Source: Crossiella cryophila
GTDB lineage: Bacteria > Actinomycetota > Actinomycetes > Mycobacteriales > Pseudonocardiaceae
DNA: 64,000 nucleotides
Assembly (NCBI RefSeq): GCF_014204915.1
Contig: NZ_JACHMH010000001.1
Span: forward strand, 1,922,001 to 1,986,000
Reading direction: 5' to 3'
The first letter of the stretch is position 1; every line of letters begins with the position of its first letter. Made by a program: the position numbers and the translations under genes. The notes below the pieces were generated by a model, which had not been told where the DNA came from, ran no database searches, and was given only the letters and a program-made list of their open reading frames with translations. Below, in pieces: positions 8,680 through 62,918 of the stretch.

Positions 8680-8822
8680 GCACCCAGCCGTACAACAACA
8701 GCCAAACCGACGTACAACAACGGCCAACACGCCGACGAGGGTTTCAACCCTCCGCGCGTGTTGGCCGTTGTCGTACGGAGTGTTGGCCGTTGTTGTACGC
8801 CACGTTGGCCGTTTTGGGACGC
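8680..8822. repeat. Palindromic 22-bp-unit array, copy 1
   Basis: Two left-handed units (core ACGGCCAAC) and three right-handed units (core GTTGGCCGTT) flank a variable centre at 8731-8757 containing AGGGTTTCAACCCT. The right-hand units repeat at exactly 22 bp. The outer arms pair over ACAACGGCCAACACGC and its complement. It lies between the ends of two convergent genes and would fold into a long hairpin in RNA from either strand. Confidence 0.9.
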
Positions 8823-9170
8823 CAACCAGGCAAGCGGGCGAAGCCCGGGAACGCTGCGGCTAGGCGGTTCACGCGCGCCGCGACCGGGCGAAGCCCGCAC
8901 AGGCGGCCGGGGTGGCTTTTCAAACATCCCCGAGCGGTTCCCCCATCCCCGTCAGCCTGGAGAGGACACACCGCATCCCGGGCAAGCGGCCCGCAACCTG
9001 CGAAACCCTAGCCACCCAACCGCAACCGGCCGCTTGCCCGGGATGTGGTTTGGTATCGGAGGGCTGACGGGGATGGGGGAACCGTACGAGCACTGCTCTT
9101 TGTCTTTGCTCTTGTTTTTGATTTTCCCCCCATCCTTTGATTTCTGCCCGTCCGGCGAGGACGCCCTTGA
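8795..9170. repeat. Long intergenic repeat element, copy A (about 375 bp)
   Basis: This segment recurs, same orientation and highly similar, at 20388-20760. It begins in the last units of the 22-bp array and contains an imperfect inverted repeat: 8936-8990 pairs with 9028-9083 (GGTTCCCCCATCCCCGTCAG against CTGACGGGGATGGGGGAACC at the outer ends, ATCCCGGGCAAGCGGCC against GGCCGCTTGCCCGGGAT inside). A T-rich tract (9098-9126) follows the hairpin, as in an outsized intrinsic terminator. No plausible coding sequence is seen in it. Confidence 0.85.
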
Positions 9171-9250
9171 CTGTCGCTCGTGTACCTCAGCAACAGAGGC
9201 CAACAGCGCAAAGATCAAGAGCGGAAAAGATGGCCTCGCCGGCCGGGCAG
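9144..9250. repeat. Inverted repeat, 17-bp arms
   Basis: CTGCCCGTCCGGCGAGG (9144-9160) pairs with CCTCGCCGGCCGGGCAG (9234-9250) with one mismatch, across a 73-base loop. It follows the larger hairpin of element copy A and extends the series of nested palindromes. Confidence 0.7.
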
Positions 9251-9298
9251 ACCACCGGAGGGGGGAGGGCAGATCAAGAGCCGGGATGAGCAGGTTGC

Positions 9299-9541
9299 GG
9301 GGCGGGGTTTGGGCTGCCGGGGCCGGATCCAGCGTGGCTCCGAGGGCTCGCGTGTTCTCCGCACGGCCTTCCGCAAGCCAACCACACCTCACCGAGTGGC
9401 CCCCGTTGCGGATTCGTGGGCAGGCGGCGGCAGGTTGCAGGGGCCACTCGGTGAGGCGCGGTCAGCAAGCTCCAGGCCGTACGGAGAACACGCGAGAACC
9501 CTCGTCGTGGGGTTTCACCCCCAACCCCAAACCCCGCCCCG
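9299..9541. repeat. Long imperfect inverted repeat, arms of about 100 bp
   Basis: 9299-9404 and 9438-9541 are imperfect reverse complements. Anchors include GGCGGGGTTTGGG against CCCAAACCCCGCC-type sequence, CTCGCGTGTTCTCCG against CGGAGAACACGCGAG, and CCTCACCGAGTGGCCCC against GGGGCCACTCGGTGAGG. The loop is about 33 bases. No matching copy is found at 20 kb or elsewhere in the window. No coding sequence is convincing here. Confidence 0.8.
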
Positions 9542-9544
9542 TCC

Positions 9545-9660
9545 CATAACGGCCAACGACCCGTACAACAACGGCCAACACGGCGTACAAGAACGGCCAA
9601 CACGCCGGGGGCTTGTGAAGCCTGTCGGTGTGTTGGCCGTTGTCGTACGTTGGTTTGGCT
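9545..9660. repeat. Palindromic 22-bp-unit array, copy 2
   Basis: Three left-handed units (ACGGCCAAC core) and one and a half right-handed units flank a centre in which GGCTT pairs with AAGCC inside CCG/CGG. It lies immediately before the sdhB stop codon at 9668, so sdh transcripts run into it. Confidence 0.88.
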
Positions 9661-9667
9661 TTTGTGG

Positions 9668-10449
9668 TCAGCGGCGGAACAGCAGTGCGCGCTTTACTTC
9701 CTGGATCGCCTTCGTCACCTGGATCCCGCGTGGGCAGGCATCCGTGCAGTTGAACGTCGTCCGGCAGCGCCAAACGCCATCAACGTCGTTCAGGATGTCC
9801 AGCCGCTCCTCAGCGGCCTCATCCCGGCTGTCGAAGATGAACCGGTGCGCGTTCACGATCGCCGCGGGCCCGAAGTAGGACCCCTCCACCCAGTACACCG
9901 GGCAGCTCGTGGTGCAGCAGGCGCACAGGATGCACTTGGTGGTGTCGTCGAAACGCTCGCGGTCGGCCGCGGACTGGATGCGTTCCTTGGACGGGTCCTG
10001 GCCGTAGTTGATCAGGTACGGCTTGACCGCCCGGAATGCCTCGAAGAAGGGCTCCATGTCCACCAGGAGGTCCTTCTCGGCCTGTAGGCCCTTGATCGGC
10101 TCCAGGGTGATCGTGGTCGGCTTGCCCTTCTTCGCCATCAGGTCCTTGACCAGGACCTTGCAGGCCAGTCGGTTCACGCCGTTGATCCGCATCGCGTCCG
10201 AGCCACACACACCGTGCGCGCAGGAGCGGCGGAAGGTCAGCGAGCCGTCGACGTACCACTTCACGTAGTGCAGCAGGTTGAGCACTCGATCAGTGGGCAG
10301 TGCGGGCACCGAGAAGGACTCCCAGCGCGGCTCCGCGTCGGTCTCCGGGGTGAAACGCCGGATCCGGACGGTGACGAGCGTGGACCCCTCGGGGGCGGGG
10401 GGAAGGGCGCCGCGGGAACCAGCCGCGGGGGCCTGCGCAGTCGCGGTCA

Positions 10450-10450
<1 letters not shown>
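9668..10450 (-). CDS. sdhB: Succinate dehydrogenase iron-sulfur subunit
   Basis: Electron-transfer subunit of respiratory complex II, 260 residues. The [2Fe-2S] site uses C77, C82 and C97, with Asp at the CGSD position (residue 85), a substitution also found in E. coli SdhB. The [3Fe-4S]/[4Fe-4S] ligands lie in CILCACCTTSCP (173-184) and FNCTDACPRG (234-242). It is last of the sdhCDAB operon; its ATG overlaps the sdhA stop (TGATG). The N-terminal 20 residues are an Ala/Pro-rich extension. A palindromic array lies directly downstream. Confidence 0.97.
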
Positions 10451-12201
<1,751 letters not shown>

Positions 12202-12215
12202 GGTGGGAGCCTCGC

Positions 12216-12638
12216 TCAGCCGAAGTTCGGGGTGAAGGTGAAGATCACGAACGTGCCGAGCGCGACTGTCAGGATCACGGACACGTACAGCAGCGTGGTC
12301 AGCCAGAACCGGGTGCTGTCCTTGCGCGAGTAGTCATTGATGATCGTGCGCATCCCGTTGCCGCCGTGGATCATGGCCAGCCACAGCATGGACAGGTCCC
12401 AGAACTGCCAGAACGGCGAGGCCCAGCGGCCGGCCACGAAGGCGAAGTTGACCTTGTGCACACCGCCGTCCAGGTACAGCATGATCAGCAGGTGGCCGAG
12501 CACCAGGAACACCAGCACCAGGCCGGACAGGCGCATGAACAGCCAGCTGGCCAGCTCGAAGTTGCTCCGGCGGGCGGCCCGGCGGCGCGGATGCCGCGGC
12601 GGCGCCAGGTCGGGCGCGTTGAGGGTCGCTTCGCTCAT
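12216..12638 (-). CDS. sdhD: Succinate dehydrogenase membrane anchor subunit
   Basis: A 140-residue membrane subunit with three helices (about 34-56, 76-98, 113-135). A His-rich region ([20 protein letters not shown]) offers haem or quinone ligands. The N-terminus is a basic, Pro-rich cytoplasmic stretch. It lies between sdhC (1 base upstream) and sdhA. The assignment of SdhD versus SdhC rests on operon order and the [13 protein letters not shown] motif. Confidence 0.92.
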
Positions 12639-12639
12639 G

Positions 12640-13068
12640 TCACATCCCGCCCATCAACATGCTGTACGCCTTGGCGAGCAGGTGGTACGAGCCGGGGATC
12701 ATCAGCGCGGCCCAGATCACCAGCACGGTCCACATCATCGGACGCTGGAATCGCGGGCCCTTGCCCCAGAAGTCCACCAGCATGACGCGGATGCCGTTGA
12801 GCGCGTGGAAGAGCACCGCGGCCACCAGGCCCAGCTCGAACAGGACGAAGAACGGTTCCTTGTAGGTCGCGATGACCTTGTCGTACGCCTCCGGCGACAC
12901 CCGCACCAGCGCGGTGTCCAGGACGTGCACGAACAGGAAGAAGAACGTGAGCACCCCGGTGATCCGGTGGGCGACCCACGACCACATGCCCAGGTCTCCC
13001 CGGTACAGCTTGCCGCCGCCGCGGGAACCCCGCTGCTGCTGCGTCGCCGCGGCCTCTGTGCTGGCCAT
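12640..13068 (-). CDS. sdhC: Succinate dehydrogenase cytochrome b556 subunit
   Basis: First gene of the sdh operon; 142 residues with three membrane helices (about 35-55, 72-98, 112-135). WSWVAHRITGVLTFFF carries the conserved HRxTG motif, and HVLDTAL and FHALNGIRVM supply the His residues expected to bind haem b. The ATG at 13068 follows a short leader in the 382-bp divergent region shared with the BMP lipoprotein gene. Confidence 0.93.
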   Translation of the reverse strand: MASTEAAATQQQRGSRGGGKLYRGDLGMWSWVAHRITGVLTFFFLFVHVLDTALVRVSPEAYDKVIATYKEPFFVLFELGLVAAVLFHALNGIRVMLVDFWGKGPRFQRPMMWTVLVIWAALMIPGSYHLLAKAYSMLMGGM

Positions 13069-13450
13069 GGTGGACGGCCTCCAACGTCATTGCTGGATCT
13101 CTGGCACCGGTGTTCGGGCAGCCGGGGCCTTGACCCACGGGATGCTAGCCGTGTAGGCGCCGGTCGACCCACTTGGCGTCGCCCGCTGTGATCGACGAGA
13201 CAGCCTCCAGGGGGACTCGCGCACGCGACGCAACACGCGCGTAACCCGCGCGCGCGAACTTCGGCGCGAACGGGGGCGGCCTGTGGATGGAGCGGCCAAC
13301 AATTCGGTCACGTACGGCAGACTGCCTGCGGAGTACGCCATACCGGCGGGTACGGTTCGGCGTTTGTAGAAGCCCCCGTCGATGGAGCCGGGGGTTGTGC
13401 CGGGCGGCCGTGAGGTAGCTCGGTGAGGCCATGTGAAGGAGACGAGAGCC
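13069..13450. promoter_or_regulatory. Divergent intergenic region, sdhC / nucleoside operon
   Basis: This 382-bp stretch must hold the promoters of sdhCDAB (minus) and of the BMP-ABC operon (plus). I see a short hairpin (CCCCCG at 13373 with CGGGGG at 13389) about 55 bp before the BMP start and a strong GAAGGAGA ribosome-binding site at 13435. No convincing -35/-10 pair could be assigned, and no gene is supported. Confidence 0.5.
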
Positions 13451-14590
13451 GTGCGTCGGATGCGAAACGCCGCGGTGGCCGCGGTCGCGATCACCAGCGT
13501 CCTGTCGCTGGTCGCGTGCGCGAAGGACAGCGGGACGACCCCGGGCGGCAACGCCGCCGGGGCCGAGTGCCAGAAGGCCACCCCGCCCACCGTGCAGGCC
13601 GGTTCGACCAGCAGCAGCACCACCGGGACCAAGCCCGACGCCAAGGCGCTCAAGGTGGGTCTGACCTACGACATCGGCGGCCGGGGCGACGCCTCGTTCA
13701 ACGACGCGGCCGCCGCGGGCATCGACCGCGCGATCGCCGAGCTGGGCGTGCAGAAGAGCAACGTCAAGGAGGCGTCGGCGGCCGCCGGTGACACCGAGGA
13801 CGTCAAGGCCAGCCGCCTGCGCCAGCTGGCCAGCGAGGGCTTCAACCCGGTGGTCGCGGTCGGCTTCGCCTACGCCGACGCGCTCAAGGTGGTGGCCGCG
13901 CAGTTCCCGAACACCCGCTTCGCCATCGTGGACGCGGGCGTGGACGGCGCCAAGAACGTCACCCCGCTGGTCTTCGCCGAGGAGCAGGGCTCCTTCCTGG
14001 CCGGGGTGATCGCCGCGTACAAGAGCAAGAAATGCTCAGTCGGCTTCGTCGGCGGCGTGAACGTGCCGCTGATCCAGAAGTTCGAGGCGGGCTTCTACGC
14101 GGGCGCCAAGGCGGCCGCGCCGAACATCAAGATCGAGAAGAAGTACCTCACCCCCGCGGGTGACGTCTCCGGCTTCAACGACCCGACCAAGGGCAAGGTC
14201 GCCTCGGACGGTCTGATCGACGGCGGCGCGGACGTGCTCTACCACGCGGCCGGCGCCTCCGGTAAGGGCGTGTTCAACGCCGCCAAGGCCCGCGGCGCGC
14301 TGGCCATCGGCGTGGACTCCGACCAGTACAAGCAGACCACCGTGGCCGAGTCCAAGGACATCATCATCTCCTCGGTGCTCAAGCGGGTCGACGTGGCCGT
14401 CTACGACTACATCGCCGCGGCCGCCAAGAACGACCTGAGCACGCTGCCGAAGTCCTTCGACCTCAGCGTCGACGGCGTCGGTTACGCCACCAGCGGCGGC
14501 AAGGTCGACGACATCAAGTCCACTGTGGACGCCTACAAGGCCGCGATCGTCTCCGGCCAGATCAAGGTCTCGGACAAGCCGAGCAGCTGA
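13451..14590 (+). CDS. BMP-family nucleoside-binding lipoprotein
   Basis: Substrate-binding lipoprotein of a nucleoside ABC importer (BmpA/PnrA family), 379 residues. The signal peptide ends in the lipobox LVAC (Cys about residue 23). A Thr/Ser/Gly linker follows, and mature features include VGLTYDIGGRGDASFND and GFVGGVNVPLIQKFEAGF, both typical of the family. The GTG at 13451 is chosen over an in-frame GTG at 13433 because GAAGGAGA at 13435 is 8 bases upstream of it. It is the first gene of a six-gene operon with ATPase, two permeases, cdd and deoA; the operon content argues for nucleosides as ligands. Confidence 0.92.
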   Translation: MRRMRNAAVAAVAITSVLSLVACAKDSGTTPGGNAAGAECQKATPPTVQAGSTSSSTTGTKPDAKALKVGLTYDIGGRGDASFNDAAAAGIDRAIAELGVQKSNVKEASAAAGDTEDVKASRLRQLASEGFNPVVAVGFAYADALKVVAAQFPNTRFAIVDAGVDGAKNVTPLVFAEEQGSFLAGVIAAYKSKKCSVGFVGGVNVPLIQKFEAGFYAGAKAAAPNIKIEKKYLTPAGDVSGFNDPTKGKVASDGLIDGGADVLYHAAGASGKGVFNAAKARGALAIGVDSDQYKQTTVAESKDIIISSVLKRVDVAVYDYIAAAAKNDLSTLPKSFDLSVDGVGYATSGGKVDDIKSTVDAYKAAIVSGQIKVSDKPSS

Positions 14591-18989: not shown

Positions 18990-20263
18990 GTCACAACGCC
19001 ATTGACGTGATCCGCGCCAAGCGCGACCGCAATCGATTGACCGACGAGCAGATCGACTGGGTGATCGACGCCTACACCCGGGGTGTGGTGGCCGACGAGC
19101 AGATGTCCGCGCTGGCCATGGCCATCTTCCTGAACGGGATGACGGCCGAGGAGACCGCCCGCTGGACCGCCGCGATGGTCGCCTCCGGCGAGCACCTTGA
19201 CCTGTCCGCGGTCACCCGGCCCACGGTGGACAAGCACTCCACCGGCGGCGTCGGTGACAAGATCACCCTGCCGCTGGCCCCACTGGTGGCGGCCTGCGGC
19301 GCGGCCGTGCCACAGCTGTCCGGCCGGGGCCTCGGCCACACCGGCGGCACCCTGGACAAGCTGGAGTCCATCCCCGGCTGGCGGGCGAACCTGTCCACCG
19401 AGGAGATCACCGCCCAGCTCAACTCGGTCGGCGCGGTCATCTGCGCGGCCACCGAGGGCCTGGCGCCGGCCGACCGCAAGCTCTACGCGCTGCGCGATGT
19501 CACCGGCACGGTCGAGGCCATCCCGCTGATCGCCAGCTCGATCATGAGCAAGAAGATCGCCGAGGGCGCCCAGTCCCTGGTCCTGGACGTCAAGACCGGC
19601 ACCGGCGCGTTCATGAAGACCGAGGCCGCCGCCCGCGACCTGGCCAAGGCCCTGGTAGCCATCGGCAAGGCCAACGGCCTCAACATCAGCGCCCTGCTCA
19701 CCGACATGTCCATCCCGCTGGGCCGCGCGGTCGGCAACGCGGTGGAGGTCGCGGAGTCCATCGAGGTCCTGCAGGGCAACGGCCCAGCCGACGTCACCGA
19801 GCTGACCGTGGCCCTGGCCAGGGAAATGCTCACCCTGGCAGGCATCGACACCGACCCGGCCCCCGTACTCGCCTCCGGCCAGGCCTACGAGACCTGGTGC
19901 CGGATGATCAAGGCCCAGCACGGCGACCCGGACGCCGCCCTGCCCAAGCCCAACCACATCCACGTGGTCGAGGCCCCTGCCACCGGCACCCTCACCACCC
20001 TGGACGCCTACGCCGTCGGCGTCGCCGCCTGGCGCCTGGGCGCGGGCCGGGCCCGCAAGGAAGACCCGGTCCAGCACGCCGCCGGCATCCTCTGCCACGC
20101 CAAACCCGGCGACCACGTGACCAAGGGCCAACCCCTCCTGGAACTCCACACCAACACCCCAGAAGCCTTCACCGGAGCCCTGGCCGCCCTCACCGGCGGC
20201 TACCAAATCGGCGACTCCACCCCCGAAGCCAAGCCCCTCATCCTCGACACCCTCCGAGGCTGA
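18986..20263 (+). CDS. deoA: Thymidine/pyrimidine-nucleoside phosphorylase
   Basis: Phosphorolyses thymidine or deoxyuridine (possibly uridine) to base plus (deoxy)ribose-1-phosphate. 425 residues; the phosphate-binding KHSTGGVGDK (83-92) and the family signature SGRGLGHTGGTLDKLE (112-127) are intact. It ends the transport/salvage operon and overlaps cdd by 4 bases. The C-terminal domain (HAKPGDHVTKGQPLLELH) matches the PyNP C-terminal fold. A repeat array follows 8 bases after the stop. Thymidine-only versus broad specificity cannot be decided from sequence alone. Confidence 0.95.
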   Translation: MSHNAIDVIRAKRDRNRLTDEQIDWVIDAYTRGVVADEQMSALAMAIFLNGMTAEETARWTAAMVASGEHLDLSAVTRPTVDKHSTGGVGDKITLPLAPLVAACGAAVPQLSGRGLGHTGGTLDKLESIPGWRANLSTEEITAQLNSVGAVICAATEGLAPADRKLYALRDVTGTVEAIPLIASSIMSKKIAEGAQSLVLDVKTGTGAFMKTEAAARDLAKALVAIGKANGLNISALLTDMSIPLGRAVGNAVEVAESIEVLQGNGPADVTELTVALAREMLTLAGIDTDPAPVLASGQAYETWCRMIKAQHGDPDAALPKPNHIHVVEAPATGTLTTLDAYAVGVAAWRLGAGRARKEDPVQHAAGILCHAKPGDHVTKGQPLLELHTNTPEAFTGALAALTGGYQIGDSTPEAKPLILDTLRG

Positions 20264-20270
20264 CCCACAA

Positions 20271-20412
20271 CAGCCAACACCCCGTACAACAACGGCCAAC
20301 ACGGCGTACAAGAACGGCCAACACACGGTACGACAACGGCCAACACGCCGACAGAGCTTGAAACCCGTCGGCGTGTTGGCCGTTGTCGTACGCCACGTTG
20401 GCCGTTTTGGGA
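20271..20412. repeat. Palindromic 22-bp-unit array, copy 3
   Basis: Three to four left-handed units at 22-bp spacing, a centre with GCCGAC pairing to GTCGGC across AGAGCTTGAAACCC, then two right-handed units that merge into long element copy B. It lies directly after the deoA stop, opposite the convergent coiled-coil gene. Confidence 0.9.
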
Positions 20413-20760
20413 CGCCAACCAGGCAGGCGGGCGTAGCCCGGGAACGCTGCGGCTAGGCGGTTCACGCGCGCCGCGAGCGGGCGGAGCCCGAACAGGCGGA
20501 GGGGGTGGCTTTCAACACTCCCCGAGCGGTTCCCCCATCCCCGTCAGCCTGGAGAGGACACACCACATCCCGGGCAAGCGGCCCGCAACACAAACCGCCG
20601 CCGAACCAACACCAACGCGACCGGCCGCTTGCCCGGGATGTGGTTTGGTATCGGAGGGCTGACGGGGATGGGGGAACCGTACGAGCACTGCTCTTCTTCT
20701 CTGCCTTTGATTTTCCCCCCCATCCTTTGATTTCTGCCCGTCCGGCGAGGACGCCCTTGA
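20388..20760. repeat. Long intergenic repeat element, copy B (about 373 bp)
   Basis: Near-copy of 8795-9170 in the same orientation, with the same internal inverted repeat (20528-20583 with 20623-20676) and the same T-rich tract after it. Differences concentrate in the loop (20587-20620) and in the tract after the hairpin. No transposase, terminal inverted repeat or target-site duplication was found. This and the following 100 bp hold no convincing gene. Confidence 0.85.
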
Positions 20761-20810
20761 TCTTCGCTTTTGACTTTGACCCGCGCGGGCGGGCAAGGGC
20801 AGACAGCACT

Positions 20811-20862: not shown

Positions 20863-22167
20863 TCAGCTGTCGATGTCCACGTCCACGCCATCGGGGTCGA
20901 CGGACTTCTCCGCGTCGCGGGACTTGCCGGTGCTCTTGGCGCGGCTGCGGCGCTGCTGGCGGGGCATGACCGCGGGGGGCGGGGGCGGGGTGGGGGCGCC
21001 GCCGCCGAGGATCAGCTCGGCGAAGGTGGCCATGGCCTCGTCCAGCTGGCCGGCGTGGCGCTGGTCGGACTCCTGGTTGGCCTGGCGGACCAGGCCGATC
21101 AGGGCGTCGTTGTCCGGGCGCTCGGTGACCGCGCCGGTGACCCGGTTCAGGCCCTGCTTGACGTTGCCGTCCAGGTCGCCGAGGCGGCCGCTGACGTTGT
21201 CCTCGACCTCGTCGATCCGGCCGCCGACCTGCTCCAGCCGGGCGTTGAGCGCCTCCAGCCGGTCGGCAAGGCCCTGCAGCCGCTCGGTGGGGTCGACCGC
21301 GGGGCGGCCGAGCAGGTCGTCCAGCTTGTCGTTCTGCTCGTCGCGGGCCGCGGCCAGCGCGTTGTGCAGGCTGTTGTTGCCGTCGCCGATGGTGTTGCGC
21401 AGGCCGGTGTTGCCCTCGGTGATGGTGCTCTTGAGGGTGTTGTTGCCCTCGGTGATCGCGCCACGCAGCGAGCTGGTGCCGTCGTTGATCGAGCTGCGCA
21501 GGGTGTCGGTGCCCTCGGAGATCAGGCCACGCAGGCTGTCGGTGCTCTCGGTCAGCGAGCGCTGCAGCGCCTCGCGGGTGCCGTCGAGGTGCTCGTGCAC
21601 GCCCTCGTCCACCTCGTCGATCCGGCCGCGCAACACGGTCTCCAGCGCCTCCACGCGCTCGCGCACCGGGTTGGTGATCGCGGCGGGCAGTGCCTCCAGG
21701 CGGGCGTCCTGCTTGTCCAGGTGCCGCTCGACGTTGCCGCCGAGGTCGTCCAGGCGCTTGTGGATGTTGGAGAGCTTGTCCTCAAGCCCGTCCATCTTGC
21801 CCTGCACGCCCTCGAACCGGCCCGCGACGCCGTCCAGGCGGCCGTCCAGCTGGGCGAAGGGCTTGGCCAGCTTGTCGACCAGGCTCTCCACCGCGCGGCC
21901 GAGCCCGGCGATCGCGCCGTCCTGGGCCTCCAGCCGGGCGAGGGTCTCGTCCAGGCGCTCGGCCAGCACGCTGACCTCGGTGCGGTCGGGCAGCTCGGAG
22001 AGGCGCTTGCGCACCGAGCCGAGCGATTCCAGCGGCGAGAGTCGAGCGTGGATCTCGTCCAGCGCGTCGAAGATCTGCTGCTGTTCGCTCTCACGGATCT
22101 CGGCTGCGCGGATCAGCGTGTTGCGCATCCGATCGAAAGACATTGTGGAGTGGTTGTTCTCGCTCAC
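20863..22167 (-). CDS. Long coiled-coil protein with hendecad repeats
   Basis: A 434-residue acidic, helical protein with no membrane segment. Heptad-like coiled coil runs from about 20 to 200 and 290 to 375. In the middle six consecutive 11-residue repeats start at 205, 216, 227, 238, 249 and 260, each of the form (L/I)-(T/S)-(E/D)-G-N/T-x-x-L-x-x-x. The tail has a PTPPPPP stretch (392-398) and an Arg/Lys-rich patch (403-417) before an acidic end. The GTG at 22167 is chosen because GAAGG lies upstream; an internal ATG at residue 9 has no such site. Function unknown; a structural or scaffold role is inferred. Confidence 0.85.
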   Translation of the reverse strand: MSENNHSTMSFDRMRNTLIRAAEIRESEQQQIFDALDEIHARLSPLESLGSVRKRLSELPDRTEVSVLAERLDETLARLEAQDGAIAGLGRAVESLVDKLAKPFAQLDGRLDGVAGRFEGVQGKMDGLEDKLSNIHKRLDDLGGNVERHLDKQDARLEALPAAITNPVRERVEALETVLRGRIDEVDEGVHEHLDGTREALQRSLTESTDSLRGLISEGTDTLRSSINDGTSSLRGAITEGNNTLKSTITEGNTGLRNTIGDGNNSLHNALAAARDEQNDKLDDLLGRPAVDPTERLQGLADRLEALNARLEQVGGRIDEVEDNVSGRLGDLDGNVKQGLNRVTGAVTERPDNDALIGLVRQANQESDQRHAGQLDEAMATFAELILGGGAPTPPPPPAVMPRQQRRSRAKSTGKSRDAEKSVDPDGVDVDIDS

Positions 22168-23624: not shown

Positions 23625-23631
23625 GCACAAC

Positions 23632-23667
23632 AGTGGGGCCGCACCGATGATCCGGTGCGGCCCCACT
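23632..23667. terminator. Bidirectional terminator between add and the Rv3311-like gene
   Basis: A stem of about 16 bp (AGTGGGGCCGCACCG with its complement) with a short loop, between two convergent stop codons; T-rich on the plus side. Confidence 0.85.
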
Positions 23668-23689
23668 GTCTATAAAGGAGTTACAGCGC

Positions 23690-37680: not shown

Positions 37681-37693
37681 ACGGACAGTTCAG

Positions 37694-37736
37694 CGAGGCC
37701 CGGGGAACCGTTGGCGGCGGGGTGTCCCGGGCCTCG
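37694..37736. terminator. Bidirectional terminator at a convergent junction
   Basis: A perfect 11-bp stem (CGAGGCCCGGG with CCCGGGCCTCG) with a 21-base loop between the chitinase and TetR stop codons. Confidence 0.75.
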
Positions 37737-37745
37737 CGCCCTCTG

Positions 37746-39518: not shown

Positions 39519-40507
<989 letters not shown>

Positions 40508-40510
40508 CCC

Positions 40511-40708
40511 CAACACACCGTCCCAGAACGGCCAACACGGCGTACAACAACGGCCAACACACCGTCCACAACGGCCAACACTCGGTACGACAACGGCCAA
40601 CACGCCGGGAGGGTTGGACCCCGCCCGGCGTGTTGGCCGGTTTGGTACGGCGTGTTGGCCGTTGTTGTACGGGTGGTTGGCCGTTGTGGGGCGGGTGGTT
40701 GGCTGTTA
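40511..40708. repeat. Palindromic 22-bp-unit array, copy 4
   Basis: Four left-handed units (ACGGCCAACAC core) and four right-handed units (GTTGGCCG core, spaced 22, 22 and 22 bp) flank a centre with GCCGGG pairing to CCCGGC. It fills the whole 198-bp gap between convergent genes, and the last unit, GTTGGCTGTTA, includes the pmmB stop codon (TTA on this strand). Confidence 0.92.
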
Positions 40709-52181: not shown

Positions 52182-52252
52182 CCCCACTCGTGTTGGCCGA
52201 ACTCGTACGGTGAGTTGGCCGAACTCGTACGGGGTCTTGGCCGTTGTGGGAC
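52182..52252 (+). repeat. Diverged half-array of the 22-bp family, left flank of the DUF559-like gene
   Basis: Three right-handed units, GTGTTGGCCGAACTCGTACG, GAGTTGGCCGAACTCGTACG and GTCTTGGCCGTTGTGGGACG, in 22-bp phase. The first two belong to a subfamily with CGAACTCGTACGG in place of CGTTGTTGTACGG. The reverse complement recurs at 53239-53309 with few mismatches over about 70 bp. Confidence 0.9.
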
Positions 52253-52256
52253 GGAG

Positions 52257-52283
52257 TTGTCCACAACCGGGCAGTTATCCACA
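52257..52283 (+). other. Two DnaA-box-like nonamers
   Basis: TTGTCCACA (52257-52265) and TTATCCACA (52275-52283) both match the actinobacterial DnaA-box consensus, same orientation, 18 bp apart. No replication genes are nearby and only two boxes exist, so origin function is not supported; a regulatory role is possible. Confidence 0.5.
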
Positions 52284-52336
52284 GCTCGTCGATCGACGCC
52301 TGGCCCGCACCCCGGGTCAGCGTCGATCGTCATGCC

Positions 52337-53236
52337 ATGCCCACGACCATCCCGCTCCCCGTCCCCTGTACCCGCGCGCAGGCCGTCGCCGCTCTCGGCG
52401 AACGCGGCCTGCGCACCGCGCTGAACTCCGGCTGGCTGACCCGGATCTGGAAAAACCTGTTCGTGCCCGTCACCCGTGCGCACGACCCTCGGACCAGGGC
52501 CAGGGCGGCCCTGCTGCTGGCTGGTCCGGAGGCCGCGCTGAGCGGGCCGACCGCCGCCGAGGTGTACGGGTGGACCCCGTTGACCAGCTCAGCCGTGCAC
52601 ATCACGGTGCCGTACTCGCGCTGGGCCAAGAACCGGCCGGGGCTGGTCGTGCACCATGACCGGTTCACGCCGGAGGACGTCGTCGTGCTGGATGACCTGC
52701 GGGTGCTCGCCCCGGAGTACGTGCTCGCCGAGTTGCTGTGCGGCCGGTCGCACCGGGACGGGTTCGCCTGCACCGATCAGGCGCTCCGATCGCTGCCGCC
52801 GGGGCTCCAGGAGGAGCTTCGGCAGGAGATCGACACCCGGTTGCGGGCCAGGGACGATCACCGAGGGGTGGGGCGGGCCCTCCTGCTGCTCGAGCTGGCC
52901 ACCGGGCTGCCGGAGTCACCCGCGGAGAGCCTGATGCTGCTGACCCTCGTGCTCGACGGCCAGTTCCCGATTCCGGATCTCCAGCACGAGATCCTGGACC
53001 TGGACGGCCGGGTGGTGTGCAGGCTGGACTTCGCCTGGCGGCGGCACCGGATAGCGCTGGAGTACGACGGGTTCGAGGCGCACGAGAACCGGGCCGAGCA
53101 GGATGCCGATCGAGACGAGCGGATGGCAGGGCGGGGTTGGCTCACGGTGCGGGCCGGTGCGCGGGACCTCCGGTCGCCGGAGGCGCTGTTCGGGCGACTC
53201 CGGGCGGCCTTCGAGAGCAGGGAACGGCCAACATGA
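52337..53236 (+). CDS. DUF559/AbiEi-like protein
   Basis: A 299-residue protein. The N-terminal part (TRAQAVAALGERGLRTALNSG, LTRIWKNLFVPV, ALSGPTAAEVYGW) resembles AbiEi-type antitoxin winged helices; the C-terminal part contains CRLDFAWRRHRIALEYDG, a Vsr/DUF559 nuclease-like arrangement (Asp then Glu-x-Asp), and ends LTVRAGARDLRSPEALFGRL. ATG at 52337 precedes PTTIPLPVPCTRAQ. No partner AbiEii gene is present. The last codons (GAACGGCCAACATGA) are themselves a repeat unit, so the flanking array has invaded the reading frame's end. Nuclease activity is inferred, not shown. Confidence 0.75.
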   Translation: MPTTIPLPVPCTRAQAVAALGERGLRTALNSGWLTRIWKNLFVPVTRAHDPRTRARAALLLAGPEAALSGPTAAEVYGWTPLTSSAVHITVPYSRWAKNRPGLVVHHDRFTPEDVVVLDDLRVLAPEYVLAELLCGRSHRDGFACTDQALRSLPPGLQEELRQEIDTRLRARDDHRGVGRALLLLELATGLPESPAESLMLLTLVLDGQFPIPDLQHEILDLDGRVVCRLDFAWRRHRIALEYDGFEAHENRAEQDADRDERMAGRGWLTVRAGARDLRSPEALFGRLRAAFESRERPT

Positions 53237-53309
53237 GGTCCACAACGGCCAAGACCCGGTACGAGTTCGGCCAACACACCGTACGAGTTCGGCCAACACT
53301 CGGGTGGGG
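53223..53309. repeat. Diverged half-array of the 22-bp family, right flank
   Basis: Left-handed units (ACGGCCAACA, ACAACGGCCAAGACC, CGAGTTCGGCCAACACACCG, CGAGTTCGGCCAACACTCG), the reverse complement of 52182-52252. The first unit encodes the last three codons of the DUF559-like gene, and the last abuts the stop codon of the convergent GGCT-like gene. Confidence 0.9.
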
Positions 53310-56426: not shown

Positions 56427-57016
56427 GCAAGGTCGGTGTGGCCGGGTTGTCGCTGGCCGCGATGGTCGTCCTGACCGGCTGTGGTGCGCCCGCGCCCGCA
56501 GCGGGCCCGCCGCCGTCCGCACCGGCCAGCAGCAGTGCGGCGGCGCCCGAAGTGGCCGTGCTGGCCAAATCCACGCCCACCAGGGTGCGGGTGCCCAGGA
56601 TCGGCGCGGACTCCAGCCTGGTGTCGCTGGGCCTGAACAAGGACCAGACCGTGCAGGTGCCGCCGGTCACCCAGCCGATGCAGGCCGGGTGGTACGACGG
56701 TGCGCCGACGCCGGGGGAGAAGGGGCCAGCGATCGTGCTCGGCCATGTGGACGGGGCCGGGAAACCGGGCATCTTCTACAAGCTGCGCGATGTCGCGGTG
56801 GGCGATGAGATCCTGATCGACCGGCAGGACGGGAAAACCGTCCGGTTTGTCGTGCACGAGACCCAGCAGGTCGCGAAGAAGGGTTTTCCCACGGACCGTG
56901 TTTACGGCGACACGGACCGTCCGGAACTCCGCCTGATCACCTGTGGCGGGGTATTCGACAAGGGTGCGCGCAGTTATCAGGACAACATCATCGTGTATGC
57001 AACCATGGTCGAATAG
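56423..57016 (+). CDS. Class F-like sortase, lipoprotein form
   Basis: A 197-residue cysteine transpeptidase. Signal peptide with lipobox LTGC (Cys20), so probably lipid-anchored rather than held by a membrane helix. Sortase core from about 52: catalytic His108 in LGHVDG and Cys174 in LITCGG. The segment after the Cys reads FDKGARSYQDN, with Arg183 as the candidate third residue; the paralogue downstream has SYRDN instead. GTG start, GGAGGGGG 9 bases upstream inside the preceding gene's last codons. It should act on the ETGGG-bearing proteins beside it (inference). Confidence 0.85.
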   Translation: MSKVGVAGLSLAAMVVLTGCGAPAPAAGPPPSAPASSSAAAPEVAVLAKSTPTRVRVPRIGADSSLVSLGLNKDQTVQVPPVTQPMQAGWYDGAPTPGEKGPAIVLGHVDGAGKPGIFYKLRDVAVGDEILIDRQDGKTVRFVVHETQQVAKKGFPTDRVYGDTDRPELRLITCGGVFDKGARSYQDNIIVYATMVE

Positions 57017-57038
57017 TCCGCGTAGGACGTTCGATCAA

Positions 57039-57120
57039 CGTCGGGGTTGCCTGGCTTCTCGAAGAATGGCCATCTGGTCATAGGTCGCTGACCAGCGCCG
57101 ATCCAGGCAACCCAACGACG
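57039..57120 (+). other. Nested stem-loop in the sortase cluster
   Basis: CGTCGGGGTTGCCTGG (57039-57054) pairs with CCAGGCAACCCAACGACG (57103-57120) over 16 bp with a two-base bulge. Inside it CTGGTCA (57074) pairs with TGACCAG (57089) across 8 bases. It lies 22 bp after the first sortase and 75 bp before the third secreted protein; it may be a terminator or an RNA control element. Confidence 0.65.
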
Positions 57121-57194
57121 GCCCTGGCGTCTTAGGTGGTGTGGGCAGGCGAACTGCCCGCCATTGGACAAGTCGGGGAATAGGGGTAGTAGCA

Positions 57195-57818
57195 ATGGGT
57201 ATTGGTCGCATTCTTGCCGCCGGTTCCGCACTGGGTGCGACCGGCGTGCTCATCGCAGCGCCGATCGCGTTGGCCGCGGTTCCGAGCATCAGCCTGTCCG
57301 CCACGGACGTGCGTCCGGGCAGCCGGGTGGAGATCACCACCGAATGCGGACTCACCTCCAACTTCCGCGAGCCGAGTGCCGCGGTGCTGGAGAACGTGAA
57401 GCGGGTCAGCTACGACGGCAAGACCCTGATCGCCAAGTGGTCGGCGAATGTGAAGAAGGACGCGCAGCCCGGTCCGTACGAGGTCTCCTTCGCCTGCCAG
57501 GACCAGACCAGCAACGCCAAGTTCGCCGTCTCGGCCACCGGGACCGAACCCACCAAGCCCACCGAGCCGACCGTCCGGCCCACCACGTCCAAGCCGGTGC
57601 CGTCGAGCACCTCGGTCCGGCCGAAGCCGAGCACCACCGCGCCGACCACCTCCACCAGCGCGAAGACCCCCAAGGGCGCGCCGGAGACCGGTGGCGGCGG
57701 CACCGCTGACGGCGGTGGCGAGGGCCTGGCCATCGCCGGTGGCGCGGTCGCGCTGGCCGCCGGGGCCGGCATCGGGGTGATGGCGCTGCGGCGGCGTCGT
57801 GCGTCCGCGCAGGGCTGA
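57195..57818 (+). CDS. Cell-wall-sorted protein with PETGGG signal and C-terminal anchor
   Basis: A 207-residue exported protein. Signal peptide about 1-27 (APIALAAVPS), one Ig-like domain with the cluster's Cys pattern (ITTECGLTSN ... YEVSFACQDQ), a Thr/Pro/Ser-rich stalk (122-160), then APETGGGG, a hydrophobic helix (about 179-197) and the basic tail RRRRASAQG. This is a complete sorting signal with an unusual ETGGG core. ATG at 57195. Its 3' end overlaps the second sortase gene by 20 bases. Confidence 0.8.
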   Translation: MGIGRILAAGSALGATGVLIAAPIALAAVPSISLSATDVRPGSRVEITTECGLTSNFREPSAAVLENVKRVSYDGKTLIAKWSANVKKDAQPGPYEVSFACQDQTSNAKFAVSATGTEPTKPTEPTVRPTTSKPVPSSTSVRPKPSTTAPTTSTSAKTPKGAPETGGGGTADGGGEGLAIAGGAVALAAGAGIGVMALRRRRASAQG

Positions 57819-58437
57819 GCGGCGGGGCGGGCGTGTCCTCGCCGCGGTCCTGTCCGTACTGCTGCTCGCCGTCGGGGCGGTGCTCATCAGCGGTGGCGCA
57901 CGGGATCTCTGGGGTGACGTGTTCGCCGAGGCAGCCCACGATCCCGGCGGCCAGCCGGTCGCGGGCACACCGGGCAAGCCCATGCGGAAGTCCGACCCGG
58001 TCTCCATCGAGATCCCCAAGATCGGGGCCAGGTCCTCGCTGAGCAAGCTGGGCCTGAACAAGGACGGCACCGTGCAGGTGCCGCCGGTGAGCCAGCCCAT
58101 GCAGGCGGGCTGGTACTCGAAGGGCCCGACGCCAGGGGAGCAGGGACCGGCGGTGATCCTCGGGCACATCGACGGGGCGAAGAAGCCGGGCATCTTCTAC
58201 AAGCTGCGCGAACTGAAGCCAGGGGACGAGATCCTGGTCAAACGGGCCGACGGCAGCACCGCGAAGTTCGTGGTGCGGCGCTCGGCGCAGGTGCCCAAGA
58301 GCGACTTCCCGACCGATGAGGTCTACGGCAACACCACCAGCCCGGAACTCCGGCTGATCACCTGCGGCGGCAGTTTCGACCGCGCCGCGGGCAGCTACCG
58401 GGACAACACCATCGTCTACGCCACGCTGGTGGCCTGA
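57799..58437 (+). CDS. Class F-like sortase, membrane-anchored form
   Basis: A 212-residue sortase. N-terminal membrane helix about 13-31 after a basic MRPRRAERRGGR start; core from about 66 (DPVSIEIPKIGARS). Catalytic His123 (LGHIDG), Cys189 (LITCGG) and Arg in SYRDN (201) or FDR (195). About 60% identical to the lipoprotein sortase upstream over the core. The GTG start lies inside the end of the preceding substrate gene. A bidirectional terminator follows, ending the cluster. Confidence 0.88.
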   Translation: MRPRRAERRGGRVLAAVLSVLLLAVGAVLISGGARDLWGDVFAEAAHDPGGQPVAGTPGKPMRKSDPVSIEIPKIGARSSLSKLGLNKDGTVQVPPVSQPMQAGWYSKGPTPGEQGPAVILGHIDGAKKPGIFYKLRELKPGDEILVKRADGSTAKFVVRRSAQVPKSDFPTDEVYGNTTSPELRLITCGGSFDRAAGSYRDNTIVYATLVA

Positions 58438-58482
58438 GACCCGCGCTGAAGCGCCGGCCCCCAGCGGTGACTTCGGTGCGAC

Positions 58483-58517
58483 AGAACGGGGCGTGCCCAG
58501 GCGGCACGCCCCGTTCT
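58483..58517. terminator. Bidirectional terminator, sortase / glpK
   Basis: AGAACGGGGCGTGCC and its perfect complement form a 15-bp stem with a 5-base loop between two convergent stop codons. Confidence 0.9.
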
Positions 58518-58539
58518 CGCGTTCAGCCAGTCCGGTTGG

Positions 58540-60060
58540 TCAGTCGGCCTCGACCCAGTCGAAGGTCTTGGTGACCGCCTTCTTCCAGTTGCGGTACTGC
58601 TTGTCGCGGTGGGTCTCGTCCATGGCCGGGTCCCACTGCTTGTCCTGCGCCCAGTTGGCCCGGATGTCGTCCTCACTGGCCCAGAAGCCGACCGCGAGAC
58701 CGGCCGCGTAGGCCGCGCCCAGCGCGGTGGTCTCGTTGACCACCGGCCGGATCACCGGCACGCCGAGGATGTCCGCCTGGAACTGCATGAGCAGCTCGTT
58801 GACCACCATGCCGCCGTCGACCTTGAGCGAGGTCAGCGGCACGCCGGAGTCGGCGTTCATGGCGTCGATGACCTCGCGGGTCTGGAAGGCGGTGGCCTCC
58901 AGCGCGGCGCGCGCCAGGTGGCCCTTGTTCACGAACCGGGTCAGGCCGACGATCGCGCCGCGCGCGTCGCCCCGCCAGTACGGCGCGAACAGGCCGGAGA
59001 AGGCGGGCACGAAGTACGCGCCGCCGTTGTCCTCAACGCCCTTGGCCAGCGGCTCGATGTCCGCGGCCGAGCTGATCAGGCCCAGGTTGTCCCGCAGCCA
59101 CTGCACCAGCGAGCCGGTGACCGCGATCGAGCCCTCAAGGGCGTAGACCGGGGCGTTCTCGCCGATCTTGTAGCAGACCGTGGTGAGCAGCCCGTTCTCG
59201 CTCATCACCTTCTCGGTGCCGGTGTTGAGCAGCACGAAGTTGCCGGTGCCGTAGGTGTTCTTGGCCTCGCCGGGGGACAGGCAGGCCTGGCCGAAGGTGG
59301 CCGCCTGCTGGTCGCCGAGGATGCCCGCGATCGGCACCCCGGCCAGCACGCCGCGCTCGCGCACGTTGCCGTATGGCTCGGAGGAGGAGCGGATCTCCGG
59401 CAGCATCGCCAGCGGGATCCCCATCTCGCCGCAGATCTCCTCGTCCCAGTTCAGGGTGTCGAGGTCCATCAGGAGCGTGCGGGAGGCGTTCGTCGGGTCG
59501 GTGTAGTGCAGACCGCCGTCCGGGCCGCCGGTCATGTTCCACAGCACCCAGGTGTCCATGTTGCCGAAGAGCAGCTCGCCCGCCTCGGCCCTGGCCCTGG
59601 CGCCCTCGACGTTGTCCAGGATCCAGCGGATCTTGGGGCCGGAGAAGTAGGTGGCCAGCGGCAGGCCGGTGCGCGAGCGGTAGCGCTCCTGGCCGCCGCC
59701 GAGCGCGGCCAGCGACTCGCAGATCGCGTCGGTGCGGGTGTCCTGCCAGACGATCGCGTTGTACACCGGCTTGCCGGTGCTCTTGTCCCACACCACCGCG
59801 GTCTCGCGCTGGTTGGTGATGCCGACCGCGGCGATCTCGGAGTTCTGGATGTCGGCCTTGGCCAGCGCGCCCCCGCACACCTTGCGGGTGTTCTCCCAGA
59901 TCTCCTCGGCGTTGTGCTCTACCCAGCCTGCCTTGGGGAAGATCTGCTCGTGTTCGGTCTGGACGGCCGAGACGACCCGGCCGGAGTGGTCGAAGACCAT
60001 GCAACGCGTGGAGGTCGTGCCCTGGTCGATGGCGGCCACATAGCGCTTCTCAGCGGACAT
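58540..60060 (-). CDS. glpK: Glycerol kinase
   Basis: Phosphorylates glycerol to sn-glycerol-3-phosphate. 506 residues, FGGY family: [16 protein letters not shown] phosphate loop, [23 protein letters not shown], and GNFVLLNTG. The sequence [19 protein letters not shown] is the C-terminal family signature. It follows glpF by 30 bp on the minus strand, so glpFK form one operon divergent from glpD. Confidence 0.97.
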
Positions 60061-60090
60061 GATGCTGCTTGCCTTTCGTGTGGACGTTGA

Positions 60091-60828
60091 TCAGGCCAGT
60101 GCGAGGGACAGGAGTCCGGCGAGCACCGCGCCGATGAGCGGGCCGACGACGGGAACCCAGGAATAGCCCCAGTTCGCGCCGCCCTTGCCCTTGATCGGCA
60201 GCAGCGCGTAGGCGATCCGGGGGCCGAGGTCGCGGGCCGGGTTGATGGCGTAGCCGGTCGGGCCGCCGAGCGAGGCGCCGATACCGACGACCACGAACAT
60301 CACCGCGGCGTAGCCAAGCGCGGAGTTGCCGAACTGCGGCACGCCTTCGGCGGCGGCCTTGGCACTGGGGCTCAACAGGATCCACAGCACCAGCACGAAG
60401 GTGCCGATGACCTCGGTGACGGTGTTCCAGAACTTGTTGTCCACGGTCGGGCCGGTGGAGAAGATGCCGAGCGTGCCGCCGGGGTCGTCGTGCGTGTCGA
60501 ACTGGAGTTTGTAGGCCAGCCAGCAGAGCACCGCGCCGATGAAGGCGCCGAGCAGCTGGGCGCCGAAGTAGACCGGCACCAGTGCCCAGTCGAGTTTGCC
60601 CGCGGTGGCCAGACCGAGGGTCACCGCCGGGTTGAGGTGCGCGCCACTCGGGGCCGCGATGCTGGCGCCGGCGAAGACCGCGAAGCCCCAGCCGAAGTTG
60701 ATCAGCAGCCAGCCGCCGCTGTTACCCAGTGAGTTCTTCAGCACGGTGTTGGCCACCACACCGGCGCCGAGCAGAATCAGCACCGCGGTGCCGATCAGCT
60801 CCCAGACGAAGATTGCTCCGCTGGACAT
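60091..60828 (-). CDS. glpF: Glycerol facilitator (aquaglyceroporin)
   Basis: A 245-residue MIP-family channel with six helices and two half-helices. Pore motifs are [11 protein letters not shown] and [13 protein letters not shown]; the Asp after the second NPAR is the residue typical of glycerol-conducting members. First gene of glpFK. ATG at 60828. Confidence 0.96.
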
Positions 60829-60909
60829 GCGCGTCCTCCCTCAGTCCGCTCCATTGCGTCTGAGGTCGGGAACGTAGTCCTGGGCCGATCAACTGTCTAC
60901 GGTAGAATT

Positions 60910-60927
60910 CGAAACGGGACAGTTTCG
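60910..60927. promoter_or_regulatory. Candidate operator between glpF and glpD
   Basis: CGAAAC (60910) and GTTTCG (60922) form an inverted repeat across a 6-base spacer, central in the 179-bp divergent region. Two CACGTG hexamers (60943, 60951) lie beside it. A glycerol regulator of the IclR (GylR) or DeoR (GlpR) type could bind here; no regulator gene is in the window. Confidence 0.5.
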
Positions 60928-61007
60928 TTATTACTGTCAGTGCACGTGGACACGTGTGGACCGGTAGCGTAAGGGCCGCGTCCAAGCCAAGCAGGGAGGC
61001 GACGTCA

Positions 61008-62750
61008 GTGGCCAAGGCCAAGGAGAGCAGCGCGGAGATCGTGCAGGGTCGTTTGGGACCGGCCGAACGGCAGGAAGCCTGGCGCAGACTGGGTTCCGAG
61101 CACTTCGACGTGGTGATCATCGGCGGCGGCGTGACCGGCGCGGGCGCGGCCCTGGACGCCGCCACGCGCGGGCTGCGGGTGGCCCTGGTCGAGGCGCGGG
61201 ACCTGGCCTCCGGCACCTCCAGCCGCTCCAGCAAGCTCTTCCACGGTGGCCTGCGTTACCTCGAACAGCTCGAGTTCGGCCTGGTCCGGGAGGCACTGCG
61301 GGAGCGGGAGCTGATGATCACCCGGATCGCCCCGCACCTGGTGAAGCCGGTGAGCTTCCTCTACCCGCTGACCAAGCGGATCTGGGAGCGCCCGTACACC
61401 GCGGCCGGGTTGTTCCTCTACGACACCATGGGCGGCTCCAAGTCCGTGCCCGGTCAGAAGCACCTGACCAGGGCGGGCGCGCTGCGGATGGTCCCCGCGC
61501 TCAAGCGCAGCGCGCTGATCGGCGGCATCCGCTACTACGACGCGCAGGCCGATGACGCCCGGCACACCATGACGGTGGCCCGCACCGCGGCCCACTACGG
61601 CGCGGTGGTGCGCACCTCCACCCAGGTCACCGGCATGCTCCGGGAGGCAGACCGGGTGGCGGGCGTGCACGTGCGCGATGTGGAGACCGGCGCGGAGATC
61701 GAGGTCAAGGCGCACGCGGTGATCAACTGCACCGGCGTGTGGACCGATGAGATCCAGCGGCTGGCCGGCACCCGCGGGCGGTTCCGGGTGCGGGCGAGCA
61801 AGGGCGTGCACATCGTGGTGCCCAGGGACCGGATCGTGTCCGAGAGCGGCATGATCCTGCGCACCGAGAAGTCCGTGCTGTTCGTCATCCCGTGGCGCAA
61901 TCACTGGATCGTGGGCACCACCGACACGGACTGGAACCTGGACCTGGCGCACCCGGCGGCCACCAAGAAGGACATCGACTACATCCTCACCCACGTCAAC
62001 AAGGTGCTGGCCACGCCGTTGACCAATGACGACATCGAGGGTGTGTACGCGGGCCTGCGGCCGCTGCTGTCCGGGGAGAGCGAGGACACCTCCAAGCTCT
62101 CCAGGGAACACGCGGTGGCCAGGGTCGCGCCCGGCCTGGTGGCGATCGCGGGCGGGAAGTACACCACCTACCGGGTGATGGCGGCGGACGCGATCGACGC
62201 GGCCAGCCCCGACCTGCCCGGCCGGATCATGTCCTCGATCACCGACAAGGTGCCGCTGCTGGGCGCGGACGGGTACCACGCGCTGGTGAACCAGGCCGAC
62301 CAGCTCGGCGCCAAGCACGGCCTGCACCCCTACCGGGTGCGGCACCTGCTGGACCGCTACGGCTCGCTGGTGCACCAGGTGCTGGCCACCGCCGACGGCA
62401 ACCCGGAGCTGCTCCGCCCGCTGGCAGGCGCGCCGGACTACCTCCAGGTCGAGATCGTCTACGCGGCCGCCTGCGAGGGCGCGCTGCACCTGGAGGACGC
62501 GCTGACCCGGCGCACCCGGATCTCCATCGAGTACCCGCACCGCGGTGTGGAGAGCGCGGAGGCCGCGGCGAAGCTGATGGCAGGCGTGCACGGCTGGGAC
62601 GACAAGCGGGTCGCGCACGAGATCGAGGTCTACACCGCCAGGGTCGAGGCCGAACGGGACTCGCAGACCCAGCCGGACGACCAGGCCGCCGACGCCCGGC
62701 GCTCGGCCGCCCCGGAAGCCCGCCCCGAGGTCATCGAACCAGTCAGCTAA
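61008..62750 (+). CDS. glpD: Aerobic glycerol-3-phosphate dehydrogenase
   Basis: Membrane-associated FAD enzyme oxidising glycerol-3-phosphate to dihydroxyacetone phosphate and reducing quinone. 580 residues: FAD motif IIGGGVTGAGAALDA, ARDLASGTSSRSSKLFHGG, YYDAQADDAR, FVIPWRNHWIVGTTDTDW. GGGAGG is 9 bases before the GTG start. Pro/Ala/Glu-rich C-terminal tail of about 30 residues. Divergent from glpFK, and followed by repeat array 5. Confidence 0.97.
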   Translation: MAKAKESSAEIVQGRLGPAERQEAWRRLGSEHFDVVIIGGGVTGAGAALDAATRGLRVALVEARDLASGTSSRSSKLFHGGLRYLEQLEFGLVREALRERELMITRIAPHLVKPVSFLYPLTKRIWERPYTAAGLFLYDTMGGSKSVPGQKHLTRAGALRMVPALKRSALIGGIRYYDAQADDARHTMTVARTAAHYGAVVRTSTQVTGMLREADRVAGVHVRDVETGAEIEVKAHAVINCTGVWTDEIQRLAGTRGRFRVRASKGVHIVVPRDRIVSESGMILRTEKSVLFVIPWRNHWIVGTTDTDWNLDLAHPAATKKDIDYILTHVNKVLATPLTNDDIEGVYAGLRPLLSGESEDTSKLSREHAVARVAPGLVAIAGGKYTTYRVMAADAIDAASPDLPGRIMSSITDKVPLLGADGYHALVNQADQLGAKHGLHPYRVRHLLDRYGSLVHQVLATADGNPELLRPLAGAPDYLQVEIVYAAACEGALHLEDALTRRTRISIEYPHRGVESAEAAAKLMAGVHGWDDKRVAHEIEVYTARVEAERDSQTQPDDQAADARRSAAPEARPEVIEPVS

Positions 62751-62756
62751 CGCCCA

Positions 62757-62918
62757 CAACGGCCAACCCGCCGTACGACAACGGCCAAACCGGCGTACAA
62801 GAACGGCCAACACACGGTACGACAACGGCCAACACGCGCGGAGGGGTTCATACCCGCCGCGCGTGTTGGCCGTTCTGGGACGGTGTGTTGGCCGTTTTCG
62901 TACGGTGTGTTGGCTGGT
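62757..62918. repeat. Palindromic 22-bp-unit array, copy 5
   Basis: Four left-handed units at 22-bp spacing, a centre with GCGCGG pairing to CCGCGC, then three right-handed units at 22 bp, the last ending 6 bases before the convergent EspG stop codon. The array occupies almost all of the 173-bp gap. Confidence 0.92.

Follow-up and report, generated by a model that had tools for sequence, protein, structure and literature searches.

Phased 22-bp repeat arrays at gene ends in Crossiella: a genus-specific, fast-changing family that may act as bidirectional terminators

Repetitive extragenic palindromes (REPs) are described in PMC2817692 as occurring in more than 100 copies per genome, outside genes and in mixed orientations, and PMC3733652 places them mainly in convergent and unidirectional gaps. 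We describe here a family of arrays built from a 22-bp unit in the genus Crossiella, seen in a window of 64,000 nucleotides (positions 1,922,001-1,986,000 of a 10.06-Mb single-contig genome) and followed through that genome and its relatives. The Crossiella arrays resemble REPs and bacterial interspersed mosaic elements (BIMEs) in being high-copy, extragenic and of mixed orientation, and their distribution agrees with that reported for REP/BIME in PMC3733652 and PMC1590033. They differ in that their units stand in same-direction runs, mostly facing one another, and in that ordinary hairpins are mostly missing from the gaps they occupy. They also recall miniature inverted-repeat transposable elements (MITEs), being non-coding, dispersed and present or absent between species, but they vary in unit number. 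In a literature search that left subscription journals mostly aside, we recognised no paper describing such arrays in Crossiella. Judged from their place and phasing, the scarcity of other hairpins in their gaps, their turnover with hairpins between species and the dialects of the unit, the arrays would, on a modest balance of probability, be REP/BIME-like repeats that have taken on the role of terminators or 3'-end elements for both directions, forming a genus-specific and fast-changing family.

A preliminary description of the window had named five arrays carrying the words ACGGCCAAC and GTTGGCCGT. All five are there, and they lie between + and - strand stops at 8674|9668 (two arrays at a single junction), 20263|20863, 40507|40706 and 62750|62924. 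Genes in the window and in the genome sample were called with our own program, a non-standard one trained on this genome. These calls reproduce the ten convergent junctions counted earlier: four with full arrays, one with a half-array (53236|53310), four with ordinary hairpins (23624, 29741, 37680 and 58437, by eye) and one bare, with a 19-bp gap at 4869. The consensus of the unit is approximately GTACnAnAACGGCCAACACnCC (also given as approximately GTACRACAACGGCCAACACNCC) and is strongest at C4, A6 and CGGCCAACAC; ten of the 22 positions vary appreciably. The 22-bp periodicity stands, with neighbouring units on the same strand spaced by 22 bp in 209 of 259 cases and by 21 bp in 44. The proposed layout, in which left-handed (L) units are followed by a centre and right-handed (R) units, exists, but is only one of several: we counted 26 L-then-R blocks and 19 R-then-L blocks, composite arrays occur too, and single-orientation runs, which reach 13 units, are also common. 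By eye, L-then-R runs look polar, with GTCCCACAAC-kind units outward and GTACGACAACGGCCAACACGCC adjoining a G-rich tract and the central hairpin.

Across the whole genome, the unit pattern with at most two mismatches gave 342 + 365 = 707 matches and its reversed control none. We then drew 100 samples, each 20 kb long and spaced almost evenly every 100 kb, which together cover about 20% of the genome, and added the window; names such as L155, L109 and L089 refer to these sampled loci. A 22-column weight matrix at a threshold of at least 13 bits found 382 matches in 2.06 Mb against 18 for the reversed control. On both measures, therefore, the units are not chance occurrences. The matrix matches fall into 84 clusters, 62 of them with at least two units. 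These multi-unit arrays lie in convergent gaps (34), tandem gaps (24) and divergent gaps (3), with one in a gene, so that 61 of 62 are outside called genes, as in REP/BIME families. Sixteen of the 22 single-unit clusters are genic and, at 13-18 bits, near background; three of the non-genic ones, at 27-36 bits, probably represent true units. Since the sample alone contains 55 multi-unit arrays, the whole genome should hold roughly 280.

The arrays favour convergent gaps. In the sample and window, 28 of 131 convergent gaps of at least 40 bp contain arrays, compared with 21 of 515 tandem gaps and 3 of 289 divergent ones (convergent vs tandem, p = 3e-9; convergent vs divergent, p = 1e-12). With the preselected window removed, the counts become 23 of 123 for convergent gaps and 20 of 498 for tandem ones. 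An equal spread over the three gap types, which the preliminary description had taken as fatal to its proposal, is thus not seen, and the preference for convergent and unidirectional gaps is the one known from REP/BIME. Within tandem gaps, 18 of 21 arrays lie closer to the stop of the upstream gene, at a median distance of 10 bp.

Arrays also look unevenly spread along the chromosome. Between about 0.24 and 2.06 Mb, a zone in which the window lies and from which it was left out here, the sample holds arrays in 0 of 24 convergent and 0 of 99 tandem gaps; outside this zone the figures are 23 of 99 and 20 of 399, respectively. The limits of this zone were picked after the data had been seen and, because exact units are listed at 0.34, 1.74 and 1.77 Mb, it extends at most from about 0.34 to 1.74 Mb. 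It surrounds parS sites at 1,148,080 and 1,148,123 (G000:C1). The region from 5.3 to 7.2 Mb is array-poor as well (1 of 16 convergent and 1 of 78 tandem gaps).

Arrays and ordinary hairpins seldom share a gap in the window genome. With a mechanical stem-score threshold of 24, 69 of 99 convergent gaps of 20-400 bp that lack an array contain a hairpin, and 13 of 99 do so once shuffled. Of the convergent gaps with an array, 4 of 28 contain one when the span of the array is masked together with whatever lies between two arrays sharing a gap (p = 2e-7 for 4 of 28 against 69 of 99). Arrays nearly reach both stops, the medians left over being 9 and 17 bp. RNA folding of one array gap, 40508-40705, gave -142.2 and -137.4 kcal/mol for the two strands, with z-scores of -11.5 and -10.3 relative to shuffled sequences; by position and by this fold, a stable stem-loop follows the stop, as at an intrinsic terminator.

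Five Crossiella genomes were compared: that of the window and the relatives G298, G299, G300 and G301. Unit matches number 707, 28, 247, 4 and 222, respectively, and matches to a looser tandem pattern 351, 68, 146, 0 and 94. In 385 other genomes of the family, the looser pattern occurs once in each of two genomes, one of which also has a control match, and in an order-wide draw containing no other Crossiella genome, one of 297 other genomes has one single-mismatch match. A search of a public genome collection, from which the window's own genome was possibly excluded, found the tandem-unit pattern in 18 stretches, all from Crossiella sp. S99.2. Very probably G299 is this strain; it shares long syntenic blocks with the window genome at 90-98% identity.

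For the comparison of orthologous gaps we used eleven array sites: five from the window and three each from L155 and L109, two loci chosen for their several arrays. The comparison did not extend to the half-array at 52187, and the region upstream of the compared stretch was largely non-syntenic and contributed no array site. Twenty orthologous gaps lack an array: 11 hold an ordinary hairpin (by eye), six are bare and three contain 0.7-1.2 kb of gene-like sequence. Like bidirectional intrinsic terminators, the kind of structure held by these 11 gaps, arrays place a stem-loop between convergent stops. They differ from such terminators in that array gaps measure about 140-250 bp where no other element is present, and further in U-tract and arm covariation (see below). 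At 8674, 40507 and L155:15717, G298 and G300 have hairpins where the window genome, G299 and G301 have arrays; the G298 hairpin at 40507 scores 21, below the threshold, and was counted by eye. At 20263, an ordinary hairpin is kept beside the array in the window genome and in G299 (scored), and at 8674 G301 combines an array with an imperfect inverted repeat of some length, recognised by eye and reaching a stem score of 22 at best. These gaps with both structures look like intermediates. Among convergent gaps of at least 20 bp in the compared region, G300, which lacks any tandem unit pair, has ten with a hairpin and one with neither structure; G301 has eight with a hairpin, three with an array and three with neither (one too long to score), and G299 five, five and two (one too long to score). 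At L155:7440, the arrays of the window genome, G299 and G301 are recognisably homologous and differ in unit number and sequence, so arrays are also passed on by descent and altered where they stand.

On the reading that we favour, a 22-bp unit would have multiplied into runs, two of which usually face each other. Because facing runs would give each transcript a very long terminal stem-loop, the arrays probably stop transcription from either side, or else set and shield the 3' ends of the transcripts, through these stem-loops or through a bound protein. Ordinary hairpin terminators at array junctions would have become redundant and then been lost, as the species comparison suggests. In spreading, the family may have had entire blocks copied from one site to another and units gained and lost, since near-identical blocks lie at distant sites (for example in L089, L093 and L142) and unit numbers differ at orthologous ones. 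Bidirectional termination, already proposed in the preliminary description, thereby gains the indirect backing of the hairpin counts and of the orthologous gaps with hairpins, but not of U-tracts, covariation or the bare orthologous gaps. Repeats at gene ends are usually regarded as merely tolerated. Here the array family and ordinary hairpins act as alternatives at several shared junctions, with intermediates that have both, and whether a selfish repeat can take over a host signal becomes a directly testable question.

Near-identical blocks at distant sites would also suit selfish REP- or MITE-like repeats with no host role, which multiply harmlessly past stops and away from promoters while terminators nearby decay by chance. 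We consider this possible, though on the unlikely side. Presence or absence and layout vary at orthologous sites; at L155:15717 the array is L-then-R in the window genome but R-then-L in G301, which shows that layout turns over. Arrays frequently have a separate structured element next to them and are rare in divergent gaps, and REPs elsewhere are likewise found mainly in convergent and unidirectional gaps, according to PMC3733652. The bare orthologous gaps keep a purely selfish reading in play. By itself, however, it would predict neither the loss of hairpins at array junctions nor the near stop-to-stop filling of gaps, and no transposase has been linked to the arrays. At the short array-less gaps of L155:7440 and L155:826, the flanks are too divergent for a target duplication, such as a MITE would leave, to be read by eye.

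Several observations weigh against recruitment as terminators. Six of the 20 array-less orthologous gaps are bare, as noted; those of 62750 measure only 4 bp (G300) and 16 bp (G301), and at L155:7440 two array-less relatives have gaps of 11 and 22 bp. Array-poor G298 has ten hairpins and six gaps with neither structure (two too long to score) among its convergent gaps of at least 20 bp. In the window genome, 140 of 290 convergent junctions are shorter than 20 bp and array-free, so that a strong terminator is not needed everywhere. The flanks left around arrays are mostly too short for a second hairpin; the 4 of 28 thus partly reflects gaps filled by arrays, where no other candidate structure has room, rather than active exclusion of hairpins. 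No U-tract was seen at array flanks when these were inspected by eye; CTTTTG stands to the right of the 9541 array. Facing units of L-then-R arrays in the window genome show no arm-to-arm covariation: they agree at 415 of 670 variable positions, and shuffling gives a mean of 429. Pairing therefore belongs to the consensus, and the data give no sign that single pairs are maintained. Three-unit elements of S99.2 gave a weak signal, reached by 52 of 2000 shuffles, in a run with fitted orientation, and the fitting may itself affect the shuffles. Facing units of R-then-L blocks in the window genome match less than shuffled ones, a deficit that probably comes from an asymmetric layout with mixed orientations. 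Lastly, both orientations are present in 45 of the 62 multi-unit arrays and a single one in 17. L125:13265-13691 (13 units) and L105:12858-13077 (9 units) are single-orientation runs in tandem gaps with no facing run.

The missing covariation, the lack of visible U-tracts and the single-orientation runs leave room for a protein. In this rather improbable account, a protein that recognises the unit sequence would bind along the arrays and coat the DNA, two helical turns being about 22 bp, and would block polymerase or mark a chromosomal boundary, the unit following each species' version of the protein. The protein filament suggested in the preliminary description is neither strengthened nor weakened by these data. 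Phased spacing, runs in one orientation, base-pairing unproved by covariation, the change of unit between close species and the standard element of S99.2 (both described below) all fit. Ten variable positions out of 22 do not, the protein is hypothetical, and copying of repeats would likewise yield phasing and dialects. An elaboration that we hold a little more doubtful still is that a lineage-specific protein recognises the phased arrays and stops polymerase on both sides, that the arrays have replaced terminators at about one-fifth of spacious convergent junctions, and that the recognition dialect has been rewritten across the genome within this one genus. Loading of Rho at gene ends by C-rich, G-poor unit strands was also considered. 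The unit strand comprises 30% A, 40% C, 22% G and 8% T, as a Rho utilisation site might; the C-rich strand, however, shows no clear preference towards the upstream gene, the first run being L at 16 and R at 12 convergent junctions and L at 8 and R at 13 tandem ones. We rejected this reading on the orientation counts and hold it very improbable.

The unit has dialects within the genus. G299 has arrays at 10 of the 11 compared sites, and most of these are made up of, or include, a different unit based on the palindrome TTGGGCCAA. Matches to the TTGGGCCAA-type pattern number 566 in G299 but 68 in the window genome; among the latter places listed, a single one is exact, and GTTCGGCCAA stands at most of the others. 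From S99.2 we collected 56 chains in the compared region, named loci and 40 match-bearing stretches, a selection biased towards matches; 49 of the 56 have three units and share a common 67-bp form, with 46 distinct elements among them. Among the 51 chains with an assigned gap type, 38 are convergent, 10 tandem and 3 divergent, two of the convergent ones being sub-chains already counted. G298 may have a third dialect: among the places listed, as at C1:2031792-2031851, GTAC stays the same, as does CGGCCAACACG in most, with variable bases separating the two.

Dialects, inverted pairs and location at 3' ends are features that PMC3630211 gives for the DNA uptake sequences (DUS) of Neisseriaceae, which form inverted pairs at terminators. 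That the Crossiella units are uptake-type sequences of this sort is nonetheless most improbable. According to the same paper, DUS are commonly intragenic, whereas only 17 of our 84 clusters are genic, 16 of them single matches of 13-18 bits, so that coding copies stay at the background level of 18 control matches; the arrays, moreover, are phased runs of units. The DUS dialects serve as an instructive parallel, not a match.

Membership in the GTAG class of REPs linked to REP-associated tyrosine transposases (RAYTs) is not supported. The unit consensus starts G-T-(A/C)-C, so the palindrome end carries no GTAG tag. A RAYT domain (PF01797) is found in two of the five Crossiella genomes, that of the window (with an internal stop) and G299, and not in G298, G300 or G301. 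No consistent link to a RAYT is supported, since G301 combines 222 unit matches with the absence of PF01797. By eye, some units read CGTCC, which includes the letters of CGTC, the tag of the other REP superfamily.

A second non-coding element shares the gaps of the arrays (Table 1). It measures about 650-720 bp, has copies in L089, L092, L100, L109, L143, L144, L155 and L156, and has BLAST relatives at many sampled loci with 82-94% identity over pieces of at least 250 bp. One of its hairpins shows double compensatory changes in 12 of 52 pairs (18 copies) and a second in 4 of 43 (12 copies), where three of the four split 6:6 and possibly reflect one event. Relatives at about 71-81% identity are present in G301 and in G300, although the latter is nearly array-free, and the copy at L100:18389-19038 has no neighbouring array; the element is thus separate and shares the arrays' niche. 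Rfam gave ten matches in 8600-9700, all to microRNA models and far below gathering scores, and phage and plasmid collections yielded no match to the element or the junction.

Table 1. Arrays, comparison hairpins and dispersed-element copies in the window (positions within the window; L and R, units in order)
Feature	Positions	Strand	Remarks
Array LLRRR, L-then-R	8690..8820	.	15 bp past + gene stop 8674
Dispersed non-coding element, three long hairpins	8823..9540	+	between both arrays of the first junction; array-free copy elsewhere
Array LLLR	9541..9648	.	19 bp ahead of - gene stop 9668
Array LLLLRR	20262..20413	.	overlaps + gene stop 20263
Partial copy of dispersed element	20416..20768	+	89% identical to the element's first 356 bases
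Ordinary hairpin, comparison case	23625..23689	.	convergent junction; present in all four relatives
Ordinary hairpin, comparison case	37681..37745	.	convergent junction; present in all four relatives
Array LLLLRRR	40520..40692	.	within 198-bp gap 40507|40706
Half-array RRR	52187..52252	-	past + gene stop 52179; inverted partner of 53237-53302
Half-array LLL	53237..53302	+	between convergent stops 53236 and 53310
Ordinary hairpin, comparison case	58438..58539	.	convergent junction; present in all four relatives
Array LLLLRRR	62751..62925	.	fills gap 62750|62924 stop to stop

The inverted partner of the half-array at 53237-53302 had been overlooked in the preliminary description. Together the two half-arrays (52187-53302, RRR - gene - LLL) flank a DUF559-like gene whose match lies just above the Pfam cut-off, and a transposase between them was rejected on this identification. 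G301 carries a 91% identical end of the DUF559-like gene together with an LLL half-array. Around the arrays of the window, nine of ten proteins have Pfam matches. The protein encoded on the - strand at 20863-22167 has mostly sub-threshold matches to coiled-coil families, and its gene contains a 33-bp tandem repeat at 21361-21560.

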